In this document: positions 1 through 49,900 of the stretch, one piece after another | How the letters are laid out: each line of letters starts with the position of its first letter | Position numbering within the stretch: position 1 is the first letter of the stretch | Assembly (NCBI GenBank): GCA_947650365.1 | Contig: OX393549.1 | Location: forward strand, 82,489,819-82,553,818 | Reading direction: 5' to 3' | From: Chamaelirium japonicum | Lineage: Eukaryota; Streptophyta; Magnoliopsida; Liliales; Melanthiaceae | DNA length: 64,000 nucleotides | The notes under the pieces: generated by a model | The model's input: the letters and a program-made list of their open reading frames with translations, nothing else | Told to the model about the DNA's origin: nothing | Database searches by the model: none | Translations under genes and position numbers: made by a program

Positions 1-1938
1 CGATTACCTGAAGTTTCAACCCTCGGCTCCTTACCCTTTTGGCGATCAGAGCCACCCTGAGGGGTCGATTTCTCCTGAACAGGAGTCGGCGCTGATTGAG
101 GTTGAGGAGCCCCATCACCCACTCGACTTCCCCTCTCCAAATGAGTAGGGGGGAAGCATTCCTAGGAGGTGAGACTCTCTCTTCCTCTTGCGAGCCACCC
201 GGTTGGATGAGTCCCGCCACCATGGCTTCCACCTCCTCAGCTAGAGAGCGAGAGGGGGGTGGGGGTTGCTCGACTTCTATACCCCCGCTCGTTGTCGCTC
301 CTTCGAGACGGGGTACTTCAGGTGGAATCTGATCGAGGGGTGTGGGGTTGCTTCCAACCCCACCACTCCTCGACAGCTTTATTTTGAGGCGCATCGGCCT
401 CTTCAAATCATCGAACCGATAGGCGGGAACCACTCTTTGGCCGTCGCCTTCTGCATCCATGACTCCTTCCATCTGACGGGCCTTAGCCTCGTCAATGGGA
501 ATAGGAATCGAGTCTTCCCCTGTTGCACCAACAGTGGGGGTGGGAGGAATTTCTTCCTCACCACCCCCATTCTCGCCATCTCCACCAGAGGGAGTGGAAG
601 ACAGATCATCCTCGCCGTACCCGTCCTCATCCTCGTCATTACCACTGTTGTCGTGGCTGACATTTTCATTCTCTTCATCTTCCTCGTCGTTCCCCTTCTT
701 TACTTCTTCATCATCTTCTTTCTTCTCCTTATCTTCATCTTCTTTTTGTTTGATGAGGGTTTTTCGTTTCTTCTTCACTGGGCCTCTTTGGATCACCAGT
801 TTCTCCTCCACAGTGGGCAATCGACGCCTTACAGTGTAAATTTTCTTCTCGGCCCGAATCTTTCGAATGATCTTACCCGAATGAGGGTCCTCCTCATAGT
901 CCGAGTATAGGACTTCATTGTCCTCATATCTATCCTTTGATCGGTGGAGGAGATTGGCCTTGCCATATCTCACAGGACAGTTAGAAAACTGTTTCCACGA
1001 CCTGGTTCCGCAGGTCAACTCAAGAAATAAGTTGTCTATAGCTCCAGCCCTCTCAGAAGTCCAGGCGAAGATGCCTCCCTCGCTGTACATCTTCACTGCA
1101 TCATGCACGCTGTCTCGGGGGGTGTCGGGCACTGACATGGATGTCCATGCACCAGAAACAGAGATGGGCCAATCTGTGTATAACTTGTCTGAAGGAACTG
1201 TATCAGTAAGCGGGCGCAGCGGAGATACGCCGGTCAGATTGTAGAATGGGCTGTCCCTTCTATAAGCCCATCGGTAGTGGAAGAAAAAGTATCCAAGCTC
1301 GATCCTAGCAGCTTCGCCTTCCGGGATACTAGAGTAGCATGCCTTCAAGTCTTCCTGGAAATCCGACTCCACTCGGCAGAATGCGTAGATAATTCGCCAG
1401 GCGTTCCCAGTGACCTGCCCCGGGCAAAGGCCAGAAGTGTTCAATAATCTTGCAGCAAAGGGTGGCAACGGTAAACGCAGACCGCAGTTCATTTGGCCGA
1501 TGGTCACAATGGTTCCCATGACCTTTTCATTACTGGCATAGCTGGTAAAGACAGTCTTCTTGTCAATACCAAAAGCAGTCTGGATGCTAGGGAGTGAAGG
1601 CTGCGCCGACTTCCCTTCTGTGAAGAAAGAGAGCAGTGCTTGCCATTTCTTTCTCTTCGTATCCGTGAACTCGCCACCTGTATTGTACATGTACTCCGTC
1701 TCCTCTGTTAGAGGCATGAGCGGACCCAGAACAAACTTGACTTTAGGGATATGCTCTGGCCTAGACGGCGCTGAAGCAAACCCTACTCCTTGGTGCCTCT
1801 TGCCCAGTTGGCCAAGTTCAGCAAGTGCAGCCTTGCCTTTGTCACGACCCCTCGGAGGGGATTGAACCTCAACAATTTCCTTCCCCTTTCTCTTCGAGGG
1901 AGCCGTACCGGACTTCTTCGAACTGCCAGAGGAAGCCA
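1..1938 (-). CDS. Antisense accessory ORF of the left Ty3/Gypsy element, open to the window edge
   Basis: Reading leftwards from an ATG at 1938-1936 there are about 645 codons with no stop before the window edge. The product starts MASSGSSKKSG. Around codons 140-190 it has a block with GQMNCGLRLPLPPF, then RLL, PGQVTGNAWRI, matching the antisense ORF of the element at 21894-51059. From memory this resembles Pfam 'putative gypsy type transposon' (PF04195). Later come a basic cluster (KKKRK), like a nuclear localisation signal, and a long Glu/Asp/Lys-rich low-complexity stretch. A splice-donor-like CAG/GTAATC lies at the extreme left edge. Function is unknown. Extra antisense ORFs between integrase and the 3' LTR are known in Tat-lineage elements. 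No TATA box is visible upstream of its start. Confidence 0.7.
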
Positions 1939-2394
1939 TTCGACCGATCAAACAAGAACAAGAACAAGAACAAGAGCAGAAATCGGGAGCAAAGAGTGGA
2001 CTTCGAAAAATTTTGAAAGCGTGAGGCGAAATGACAGCCGGTGAAAACTTTTGTACCCAGGGTAAAACAGGTGCGCAAATCGAGAAGACACGTGTCTTCA
2101 TCATATCAAATCGCGTGTTTTTGTAGGTACACGTGGCATCCATCCGTAGCAAGCGCAAAATCAGGCGAACCGTCGGACCAGACGAAACGTCGGACCTACC
2201 GGTCCGCATGAACCAACGGTCCAAGCAAGCCACCGGTCTGAGTAAACCGGACCGCCAGTTCAAAGCCACGTTCAAGCCAACCAAAGATTCAAAACAGAGA
2301 AGAATCAAGCTCCATCAATGTTCAAAACTCTGCCAAAAGATCGAAGAACAAAGCAGTAAACCTTCTCTGAAGGGCAGGTTCAAAACTTTAATTC

Positions 2395-46900: not shown

Positions 46901-49900
46901 TACCTCGGGGCACCCCGAAACGATATGGACATCACGAAGCGAGATGCCTATCTCCCCCGCCCCAGTAAGGAAGGTGTTAGTCTCCGGACACCAAAGCTCA
47001 CGGTACATCCCCTCAGGACGACTGTACTCCCGACGAGCCGGCGCCAGAAATTTGGCCAATAAGTTCATCTCAGGTTCCGCGCCAAAGACCTCGTAGAGCT
47101 CGTCCATCCACTCGCGAAAGCCGCAAAGGTACTGGACGTCGCCCCGAGGCCAAGAATCGGGGCCCCATCGGGTCAGCCTAGCACATATCTTCGAAGCAAC
47201 AACGGGCGTAGGCACGAACTCTTCACCGCAATGATGGAACGGAAGACTCAAACTCGGCCGCAGAAGCTTCATGGAGATCCCTTCGTCAGTATGGATCTTC
47301 TCGCTTAATTTCAGCATCCCGCAAGTCGCATCCGCGACTCCATCTTCCGTGATGCGCTCGTGCACAAAGACACGGAGCAACGACAGAAGGTCTTCCCGCC
47401 TTGAGCTGCGGTGACGGCGCACACGAGTGAAAGGAAAGCAAAGGCATCTCCTCCCGTCGAAGAAATCCTCGTCTATCCAGCCCGAGGAAGTCAAACTCTC
47501 GAAGACGCGGGCCCTGGAGGACCATGAAAGGAGGCAAGTCAAGACAAGCGCAACAAAAAAAAAAAAAAAAAAAAAAAAAAACCAAGGGGACCTGCACCCC
47601 TGTCAGGCGGACTGCCCGACTCATCGGCCCGCCCATGTCGACCCATCAGCGCCACCCAGCCAGGGCAGCAGCCACTTGCGCACCCATGCGCCACAGACCT
47701 ACTGCTACCATCGCCATTTTCGGAGTCAAGGGGAGAAAGCAGAGAAAGAAGGTGATAGCAAAAAAAAAAAAAAAGGGGGCCACGGCAGCTGCCACTGGGG
47801 CCCGCGACCGCCCCCTTCCAATGGGAGACCAACAGCAAAGAAGGAAGGGGGGGGGGGGCCCGCACCCCCCTCCTTCTCCTTCTTCTTCGCCTGCAGCCCG
47901 ACGAGACCGCCGCCGCGCCCGCCGAAACCGGCCCCCGAGCCCGACCCGCTCGGTCCCGCAGCCGCCGGACCCGGTCCCCGAGCCCGACCCGCTCGGTCCC
48001 GCAGCCGCCGGACCCGGCCCCCGCGCCCGATCCGCTCGCGCCCGCCACCCTGCACGCCGGCCGCCGCGCGCGCCGCGCGCCGTCGCCGCCTCCCGCGCGC
48101 CACCGCACGCTGCGACCCTGCGCGCCGCCGGCCCCGCCGCGCCCCGCGCCGGCGCTGCTGCCGCTGCTGCCCGTGCAGCCCGGAACCGAACCGAAGAAGA
48201 AGAAGAAAGAAAAAAAAAGAAGAAAAGAAAGGAAAGAAAAAAAAAAAGAAAAAAAAAAAGAAAAAAAAAAGGAAAAAGAAAAGAAAAAGAAAAGAAGAAG
48301 AAGAAGAAGAAGGAGGAAGAGAGAGGCGGCGAAGGCGACCCGCACCTCAGCCGCGCTCCTCCATCCTCCCCGCCTCGAGCCTCGTCGCATCGTCGCTTCG
48401 AACCCGCCTTCGCAACGACCGCGAAATCGCGCACCATCGCCGCCAACGAAAGAGGCGACACCGGGAAGACGGAGCAAGTCGCGTGCAACCCCAGGCAGCT
48501 CTCTTCCGACGACGGTCTTCAGAAGCCGGCAGAACCGTCGCGCAAAAGCACAAGGCCGACGAAAAAGGCGACACCGGGAAGACGGAGCAAGTCTCGTGCA
48601 ACCACAGGCAGCTCTCTTCAGATCTTCAGAAGCCGGCGGAACCTTCGCAGAGAAACGCAATGACGGAAGAAGGGGGTAGGGGCCCTTAAATAGACCTCCA
48701 ACCCCGCCCACAAAAGGAATCAAGGACAAACGCTCTACGATTCCTACGTGTCCAAACCCGACACGCTCTCACCGACGCACTCGTCCTTGAGGGGGCATTT
48801 GTAGACACACGAATTTCGTCGGACCCGAACCCGACTCACGTGCGCCAACGCGGATGCAAACCCGACACACGGACCCAACTCGCGCGCACCGACATGGATT
48901 CAAACCCGACTCGCGCGCGCCGATGCGGACCCGGACCCCATGCGCCAAGGGGGGCCGACCCCTACTGGGGTCCGAACCCCATGGGGGCCGGTCCCTACTA
49001 GGACCCGAGCCACATGGGGCCGGCCCTAGTAGGACCCGAACCCCATGGGGGGCCGGCCGGCCCTGCAAGGAAAGGGGAGAAAAAGAAAGAAAAGAAAAAG
49101 GAAAGAAAAGAAAGGAAAGAAAAGAAAGGAAAGAAAAGAAAAGGAAAGAAAAGAAAAGGAAAGAAAAGAAAGAAAAGGAAAGAATACCGCCATGCGCGGG
49201 GGGAGGTAGCGTATGACGTCTGCACACGCGCGGATCTGCGCCGATCCCTCGATCCGACGCACAAGACGAAGCGCCCGATCGCCATCGATTTCGTGCGCAA
49301 AATCCAGCCATAATTGCACCCGCCAGAAAAGGAAAACAATTAAATGTTATTCCCTTCATCAATGGATGAATAAAATCCGGGTAATTATGAGAGAGATACA
49401 AAAGGGATTTAAAATTAAAAAGTTTCCATATCTCTCTCCCCACCTCTTTGCCTATAAATAGAGGGGGTGGGGGAAGGAAAAAATGGTCGAGAAATTGAAG
49501 ACGAAGCGCCAGAGCTCTGCAGAAGAGAGCACGCTTCTTCATCGACCCAAGGCTTCACGAGGCACAGTCAAGCCTGTCCCGAGGGATCGGCTTACTGAAA
49601 GTCCTCATCAACGTGAAGGCCCTTGCGCACGACGATCACCCCTTCGACTCCGTTCACGAAGAAGAAAGCTCGGAGAAGAAGAACCCTTCGACTCCGAGGA
49701 CGCCAGAAGCAAAGGCCGGAGAAGAAGAGGAGCGGCACTACCCCGTCGTCTCCAACAAGCTTCGACTCCGATCAAGCCCAAAAGCCCGGAGAAGAAGAGG
49801 AGCGGCACTACCCCGTCGTCTCCAACAAGCTTCGACTCCGATCAAGCCCAAAAGCCCGGAGAAGAAGAGGAGCGGCACTACCCCGTCGTCTCCAACAAGC

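Follow-up and report, generated by a model that had tools for sequence, protein, structure and literature searches.

Antisense TRP28 genes of Tat-type retrotransposons in Chamaelirium japonicum are under purifying selection and seem to be exchanged between families

Three Tat-type long terminal repeat (LTR) retrotransposons, here called E1, E2 and E3, lie in a 64,000-nucleotide stretch of Chamaelirium japonicum contig OX393549.1 (GCA_947650365.1, positions 82,489,819 to 82,553,818; hereafter the window). Each carries a long reverse-strand gene in the interval from integrase to the 3′ LTR (the latter delimited in E1 and E2), as a preliminary description of this DNA had stated. The gene encodes a protein with a TRP28 domain (Transposase_28, PF04195) in E1 and E3 and with a plant mobile domain (PMD, PF10536) in E2. 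TRP28 is under strong purifying selection, about as tight as that on integrase in the same elements, and on the simplest reading of the sequence comparisons the antisense gene seems to have been exchanged between TRP28 families by recombination. The preliminary description had stated that extra antisense open reading frames occur in the Tat lineage, and the finding does belong to a known kind, because the literature describes antisense TRP28 in Retand and PMD in Ogre (PMC11963269; PMC6317226). The additions made here are the measured ratio of non-synonymous to synonymous substitution (dN/dS) and the apparent exchange. Antisense genes are widespread in Tat-type elements, and a role earlier suspected from their presence and conservation is thereby given a measurement. 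The gene apparently moves between families and so would behave as an exchangeable module; the question of function is narrowed to a protein, and a promoter block and a palindrome array offer concrete DNA for testing. The antisense genes consist of the following parts.

1 to 1939, reverse strand: E3 antisense exon 1, with TRP28 domain and acidic linker (frame 2-2314, leaving the window; conserved-frame methionine at 1939)
1370 to 1507, reverse strand: E3 TRP28 (PF04195) block, E=2.6e-4, under the Pfam cut-off
755 to 778, reverse strand: E3 basic cluster VKKKRKTL, resembling a nuclear localization signal (NLS)
31116 to 32225, reverse strand: E1 antisense exon 1 (frame 31116-32231, methionine at 32225)
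31962 to 32087, reverse strand: E1 TRP28 block
31314 to 31337, reverse strand: E1 basic cluster
30225 to 30770, reverse strand: E1 antisense coiled-coil exon frame
45185 to 47317, reverse strand: E2 antisense first exon frame (open frame 45185-47602)
46382 to 46999, reverse strand: E2 PMD
45503 to 45523, reverse strand: E2 basic cluster PPKRRKM
44272 to 45306, reverse strand: second exon frame of the E2 antisense gene, encoding a low-complexity linker and a coiled coil

All three genes share one domain order: globular domain, basic cluster, linker and coiled coil. The order had been recognized before, with the coiled-coil tail limited to two complete copies; the order stands and the limitation does not, because the 9.5 kb left flank of the window (stretch L039) reveals a coiled-coil exon frame of E3 at L039:8622-9296, on the reverse strand like exon 1. 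Coiled coils were called from sequence and from weak Pfam matches to coiled-coil families. From the frames and the sequence we infer at least one intron in the antisense genes; ahead of the E1 coiled-coil frame are a GTAAGT and a pyrimidine-rich tract that ends in CAG. The E2 gene had been started at 47542, which has to be corrected, the frame's first methionine being at 47317, after a poly-T tract. The globular domains sort as first described, two being related and the third a PMD: the E1 and E3 TRP28 proteins match each other in BLASTP (E=4e-16, 29% identity over 160 aa), and the E2 protein matches PF10536 (E=3.1e-18, 66.5 bits against a cut-off of 34.9). The other profile proposed for checking, PF04195, reaches 21.6 and 24.2 bits in the two window TRP28 proteins, below the Pfam cut-off of 26.2, which relatives in the same genome exceed. 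Homology between PMD and TRP28 is unsupported by BLASTP (best E 0.89 for E1-E2, and 0.021 for E3-E2, outside both domains).

Chance open frames are ruled out by stop counts and by a frame-specific bias. Exon 1 of E1 has no stop in frame and 6-17 in the five other frames, and exon 1 of E3 has none and 14-39; the third-position bias of variants matches the antisense frame, and the mirror frame of the opposite strand has the same third positions but contains 9 (E1) or 15 (E3) stops. Twenty-one E3 copies were aligned, the window copy and 20 taken from a protein-score ranking; their longest exon 1 frames span 617-662 aa of the 662 fetched, and the VKKKRKTL cluster is retained with small changes in 20, the remaining copy being gapped there. 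The E1 window copy is possibly broken in the linker, because its exon 1 frame stops there at 371 aa and those of listed relatives extend to at least 393 aa.

Lists ranked by protein similarity lower dN, and the E3 test was therefore redone on copies chosen by DNA and on loci chosen by a hidden Markov model (HMM) block. The DNA-chosen E3-type sample was selected by the non-coding 5′ region (at least 40 places, 12 taken) and with the window copy comprises 13 sequences, 11 of which have no stops or length changes. For the window copy and 11 DNA-chosen copies, the median pairwise dN/dS of the TRP28 gene is 0.061 (range 0.043-0.346; 52 of 66 pairs usable); reading these pairs in frames +1 and +2 yields 2.06 and 2.17. 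The cross-family set contains the window copy and six relatives, picked by a short HMM block that was excluded from the count (L004 and L005, with short frames, were dropped from eight loci); its globular domain has a median dN/dS of 0.079 (13 of 21 pairs, 8 being saturated in dS) and its linker 0.30 (15 pairs). Neutral dN/dS had been named beforehand as evidence that would speak against selection, and both TRP28 medians lie far below 1. Integrase, used as a yardstick, has a dN/dS of 0.063 (36 pairs, 9 elements), and the TRP28-type coiled-coil exon 0.193 (78 pairs, 13 elements). The integrase count was made without L082, L084, L087 and L088 (partial or no integrase), and L096 was not used; stops are present in 5 of 9 integrase and 1 of 13 coiled-coil sequences, and such codons were skipped.

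Variants shared among copies were also contrasted with singletons. For E1 exon 1 (30 copies, protein-ranked list), shared variants gave 0.487 and singletons 0.829 (Fisher p=1.8e-5), or 0.40 and 0.81 with CpG sites removed, and the 300 bp upstream gave 0.82-1.11 over three frames. Two segments lie outside the query used for listing: the E3 linker (21 copies; shared 0.44, singletons 0.76, p=5e-7) and the E1 coiled-coil exon (shared 0.80, singletons 0.97, p=0.012). In E2 (21 near-identical copies, protein-ranked), none of 14 shared variants is non-synonymous against 8.8 expected, with 0.38 for singletons; protein ranking may explain part of this result. Two values were not used: 0.079 for shared variants in the E3 TRP28 part of the protein-chosen sample, and p=2.8e-20 in the DNA-chosen sample with L104 included, an artefact of this one frame-broken copy.

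The antisense slot extends from the end of the integrase frame to the start of the 3′ LTR, that is, from 29432 to 32876 in E1 and from 44016 to 48800 in E2. At least 137 places in the genome match PF04195 among the best 150 scored of 5979 candidates. In 12 sampled TRP28 loci, followed from 1.5 to 4.2 kb beyond the TRP28 block, a coiled-coil exon on the same strand as TRP28 is present in all 12, and integrase is on the opposite strand in 11 (8 full-length and 3 partial; L087 has no match). Together with the selection on TRP28, these counts bear out the earlier proposal that the antisense slot is conserved and houses an accessory protein gene under selection. Copies stop-free within the match number at least 35 among the best 110 scored of 8803 candidates for the E1 antisense protein, at least 124 among the best 127 of 9697 for the E3 domain and at least 51 among the best 56 of 4931 for the E2 PMD protein. 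These best 56 E2 copies are 99-100% identical and spread over many contigs, as a very recent burst would leave them.

The case for exchange starts from identity along the elements. Between E3 and the L080/L001 element, integrase and the non-coding stretch that follows are 90-96% identical (150- and 200-bp windows), and identity is about 81% where the antisense gene is entered at its 3′ edge, 63-77% across it and 73-84% upstream. A coding gene under purifying selection is expected to be at least as similar as its non-coding neighbour. The antisense gene is not simply faster-mutating, because between L080 and L086 dS is alike in both parts (0.22 and 0.19); yet in 35 of 36 pairs dS is higher for the coiled-coil exon than for integrase. 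Trees were built from nine elements, L003 and L007 being left out of 11 for an integrase part that could not be aligned. The integrase and coiled-coil exon trees each group the window copy with L093, L001, L092, L095 and L008 (100/99), whereas the TRP28 tree groups it with L093 and L002 (100/99). In approximately unbiased (AU) tests, TRP28 rejects the group of six (p=3.35e-5), and the group of three is rejected by integrase (p=0.0019) and by the coiled-coil exon (p=1.3e-5); the linker is compatible with the integrase group (p=0.163), all these p values being optimistic because the groups were named only after the identity profiles had been inspected. It is the conflict between the TRP28 and integrase trees that points to exchange between families, and the simplest reading would have the TRP28 exon separated from the coiled-coil exon by at least one recombination joint. 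Separately, identity between the window copy and L089 in the coiled-coil exon runs 94, 68, 65, 78 and 90% in 150-bp steps, which suggests exchange within the exon; the L080 exon behaves likewise.

Candidate regulatory DNA lies upstream of the E1 and E3 genes.

32392 to 32399, reverse strand: TATAAATA box, about 170 bp before the start of the E1 antisense gene
2089 to 2135, no strand assigned: pair of CACGTG G-boxes, spaced 41 bp, that precedes the E3 antisense start
2391 to 3889, no strand assigned: tandem arrays upstream of the E3 antisense gene, with 28 CCGATCGG palindromes at 2476-3843

These promoter-like elements are conserved for both gene types. The TATAAATA box is kept in 29 of 30 aligned E1 copies, and a CACGTG pair spaced 41-42 bp, at about -195 and -154, is present in all eight E3-type upstream regions, with TATATA about 40 bp beyond it in six; among the window's 11 CACGTG sites, the E3 pair is the only one spaced 39-44 bp. 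The CCGATCGG palindrome occurs in at least four copies in seven of the eight E3-type regions (none in L006) and once in 100,912 bases of other sequence, and ACCGATCG is found in all eight. This enrichment is suggestive only, because the arrays are repeated and homologous (78-90% identical), and no comparable repeated palindrome was found upstream of the antisense gene of E1 or E2. Within the E3 tandem units, CCGATCGG repeats are often 18-19 bp apart, an operator-like arrangement.

On balance we lean towards the view that the reverse-strand accessory gene of each element encodes a nuclear coiled-coil protein that would act in trans on the transcription or silencing of its own family. A promoter of its own, located between the gene and the 3′ LTR, would drive transcription; the predicted product begins with a globular domain (PMD in E2, TRP28 in the two Retand-like elements, E1 and E3), continues with an NLS-like cluster and a linker, and ends in a coiled coil. 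Entry into the nucleus is suggested by the NLS-like cluster and by the precedent of maize Grande, whose antisense gene has its own promoter driving transcription and whose protein is nuclear (PMC7264820). The protein would then pair through its coiled coil and affect the family it comes from, through chromatin or transcription, and either regulation of sense transcription or counter-silencing is plausible; the sequence evidence would suit regulation, anti-silencing or help with integration alike. Several points weigh against this proposal. With the frame-broken L104 removed from the DNA-chosen sample (13 to 12 sequences), the shared-versus-singleton contrast has p=0.055, most singletons being synonymous as well; constraint on the E1 coiled-coil exon is weak; and the E1 and E2 samples come from protein-ranked lists, which favour low dN. 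DNA binding by TRP28 is a computational prediction (PMC11963269). The TATATA motif is missing from the E3 window copy and from L002 among the eight E3-type regions, the stretch scanned upstream of the E2 gene yielded no TATA motif or promoter element, and no relative with a solved structure was found for the antisense protein of E2 or E3.

The antisense protein could instead serve the replication cycle, for instance by bringing the pre-integration complex into the nucleus or tethering it to chromatin. This option, named in a 2020 review (PMC7264820), would suit the NLS-like basic clusters of all three proteins and a selection on TRP28 as strong as on integrase, but a separate reverse-strand promoter would be odd for a particle component matched to gag-pol, and inter-family exchange is not obviously predicted; we judge this option unlikely. 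Anti-silencing through recognition of the element's own repeats, in the manner of VANC, or for PMD through interference with the host MAIN/MAIL1 pathway, would draw on the CCGATCGG arrays directly upstream in seven of eight E3-type regions (ACCGATCG in eight), on the apparent exchange of the gene and on the function of host PMD proteins in silencing (PMC5418596). It too has a minor share of our expectation: the homology of the arrays means that recurrence of the palindrome may be plain descent, the palindrome does not vary with TRP28 type, binding is hypothetical, and the E1 and E2 genes lack a comparable repeated palindrome upstream. A more specific and rather doubtful version makes the TRP28 gene the retrotransposon counterpart of VANC, in which a DNA-binding anti-silencing factor paired by its coiled coil would read the CCGATCGG arrays by its own promoter, and its variants, shuffled by recombination between similar Retand-type elements, would be a fast-changing arms-race weapon against host silencing.

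Two further explanations would dispense with the protein or with function, and the coding evidence bears on both. The antisense RNA might matter, through double-stranded RNA or small RNAs, since it overlaps the sense transcript and was named as possible in the 2020 review (PMC7264820); however, dN/dS of 0.06-0.19 (TRP28, coiled-coil exon) and the frame-specific third-position bias demand a protein-level function, which contradicts RNA as the sole function and makes this account very improbable, although a second role for RNA could remain. The gene could also be a functionless passenger that was once captured and whose frame is open by chance or because it is young; this would be in keeping with E2, whose copies are so young (LTRs differing at 2 of 2155 sites) that openness of the frame says little. 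For TRP28, passenger status is already contradicted by a dN/dS far below 1 at a median dS of at least 0.34 and by retention across families, and we find the idea scarcely credible.

The lineage of the elements bears on a further earlier suggestion, that domains had been swapped within the slot. Reverse transcriptase-RNase H (RT-RH) identity is 66% between E1 and E3 and 50% between E2 and each of them, which rules out replacement of TRP28 by PMD in a close relative. The difference between PMD and TRP28 probably follows element lineage, because the E2 RT is more distant and the domains already mark Ogre and Retand (PMC6317226); the idea of swapping survives as the apparent exchange among TRP28 families. 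A second RNase H before integrase is typical of Ogre and Retand (PMC6317226), and the archaeal-type second RNase H that marks the Tat clade is found in E1, E2 and E3 as RVT_3 (PF13456) between RT_RNaseH and the integrase zinc domain. Like Retand, E1 and E3 have an antisense TRP28 gene between pol and the 3′ LTR, with the window PF04195 matches under the cut-off, and E1 also agrees in size, with a 5′ LTR of 1119 bp and a pol-3′ LTR interval of 3.4 kb against Retand ranges of 315-1194 bp and 2.9-6.6 kb (PMC11963269). E2 has PMD in its extra gene as Ogre does, which is not decisive because PMD is found in 57% of Ogre (PMC6317226), and E2 was not filed as Ogre because gag to RNase H form a single open frame (36172-42264).

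Antisense TRP28 is carried by 97% of recently active Retand clusters, its DNA binding being computationally predicted and its function unknown (PMC11963269), and another survey gives TRP28 in 23% of Retand (PMC6317226). Such antisense genes are conserved about like other element proteins (PMC7264820). Those of maize Grande (gene23), rice RIRE2 and Silene Retand resemble the present ones in their reverse strand, pol-3′ LTR position and Transposase_28 domain, and in the tandem arrays nearby and the long pol-3′ LTR interval (PMC11963269; PMC7264820). What differs is that E1, E3 and 12 relatives have a same-strand coiled-coil frame, read here as an exon of one gene; PMC11963269 gives Smc and similar domains as antisense-frame matches, and in the text of that article the terms selection, coiled and intron do not occur. 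PMD is present in Gypsy elements (PMD-A), and MAIN and MAIL1, host proteins of silencing, have it too (PMC5418596); plant Gypsy consensus sequences often contain it (PMC9289625). The PF10536 domain in the extra gene of the Tat-type E2 agrees with these Gypsy genes (PMC5418596; PMC6317226), but E2 resembles the TRP28 genes in having a linker and coiled-coil frame after its PMD frame; its RT was compared with those of E1 and E3. VANC of VANDAL transposons (PMC12844716) is likewise a transposon-encoded protein associated with non-coding tandem repeats of short motifs, although VANDAL is a DNA transposon and the present elements are retrotransposons. A VANC-like anti-silencing factor would bind repeats of its own element and remove methylation; what is seen here is a palindrome-rich array. 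HBZ of HTLV-1 (named in PMC11963269) is also a reverse-strand accessory gene of a retroelement with a nuclear protein, by analogy only. No report of gene exchange or of dN/dS was found in the literature, in searches that were not aimed at dN/dS and whose coverage left out most subscription journals. The IMG/VR search made returned no relative of the E2 PMD protein. A full-length PMD match at G000:C4:7686103-7687191 (335 bits, positions 1-347 of 347, 693-aa open frame) is perhaps a host MAIN/MAIL-type gene.

The remaining parts of E1 and E2 are laid out in the window as follows.

21894 to 23012, forward strand: E1 5′ LTR
23883 to 29432, forward strand: E1 gag-pol, with gag, RT, RNase H, second RNase H and integrase
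32876 to 33951, forward strand: E1 3′ LTR, first part; the remainder, 50959-51059, lies beyond E2
33952 to 36120, forward strand: E2 5′ LTR
36172 to 44016, forward strand: E2 gag-pol
48800 to 50953, forward strand: E2 3′ LTR

E1 occupies 21894-51059 and is flanked by the 5-bp target duplication ATTAC (21889-21893 and 51060-51064); a single in-frame stop (28602-28604) interrupts its integrase. E2 (33952-50953) is nested inside the E1 3′ LTR, with the target duplication GTTGC at 33947-33951 and 50954-50958, and the sequence beyond it resumes the match to the E1 5′ LTR. The gag-pol of E2 has one in-frame stop (42262-42264), between both RNase H domains. Its LTR pair differs by two substitutions over 2155 aligned sites, and its insertion is therefore very recent. 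E3 lies at the left edge of the window, and its pol was traced into L039, which holds a gag-like frame of E3 (judged by eye) and, on the plus strand, RT, RNase H, second RNase H and integrase, the frame ending at L039:8016; the end of integrase is about 1.5 kb left of the window. Rfam (at the gathering threshold) and tRNA searches gave no matches. Each E2 LTR contains 70-bp tandem units (34808-35206 and 49641-50039). An AT-rich region at 51800-55200 has dense 8-bp tandem units, long inverted repeats with arms of up to 243 bp and up to 89 ten-base palindromes per 500 bp.

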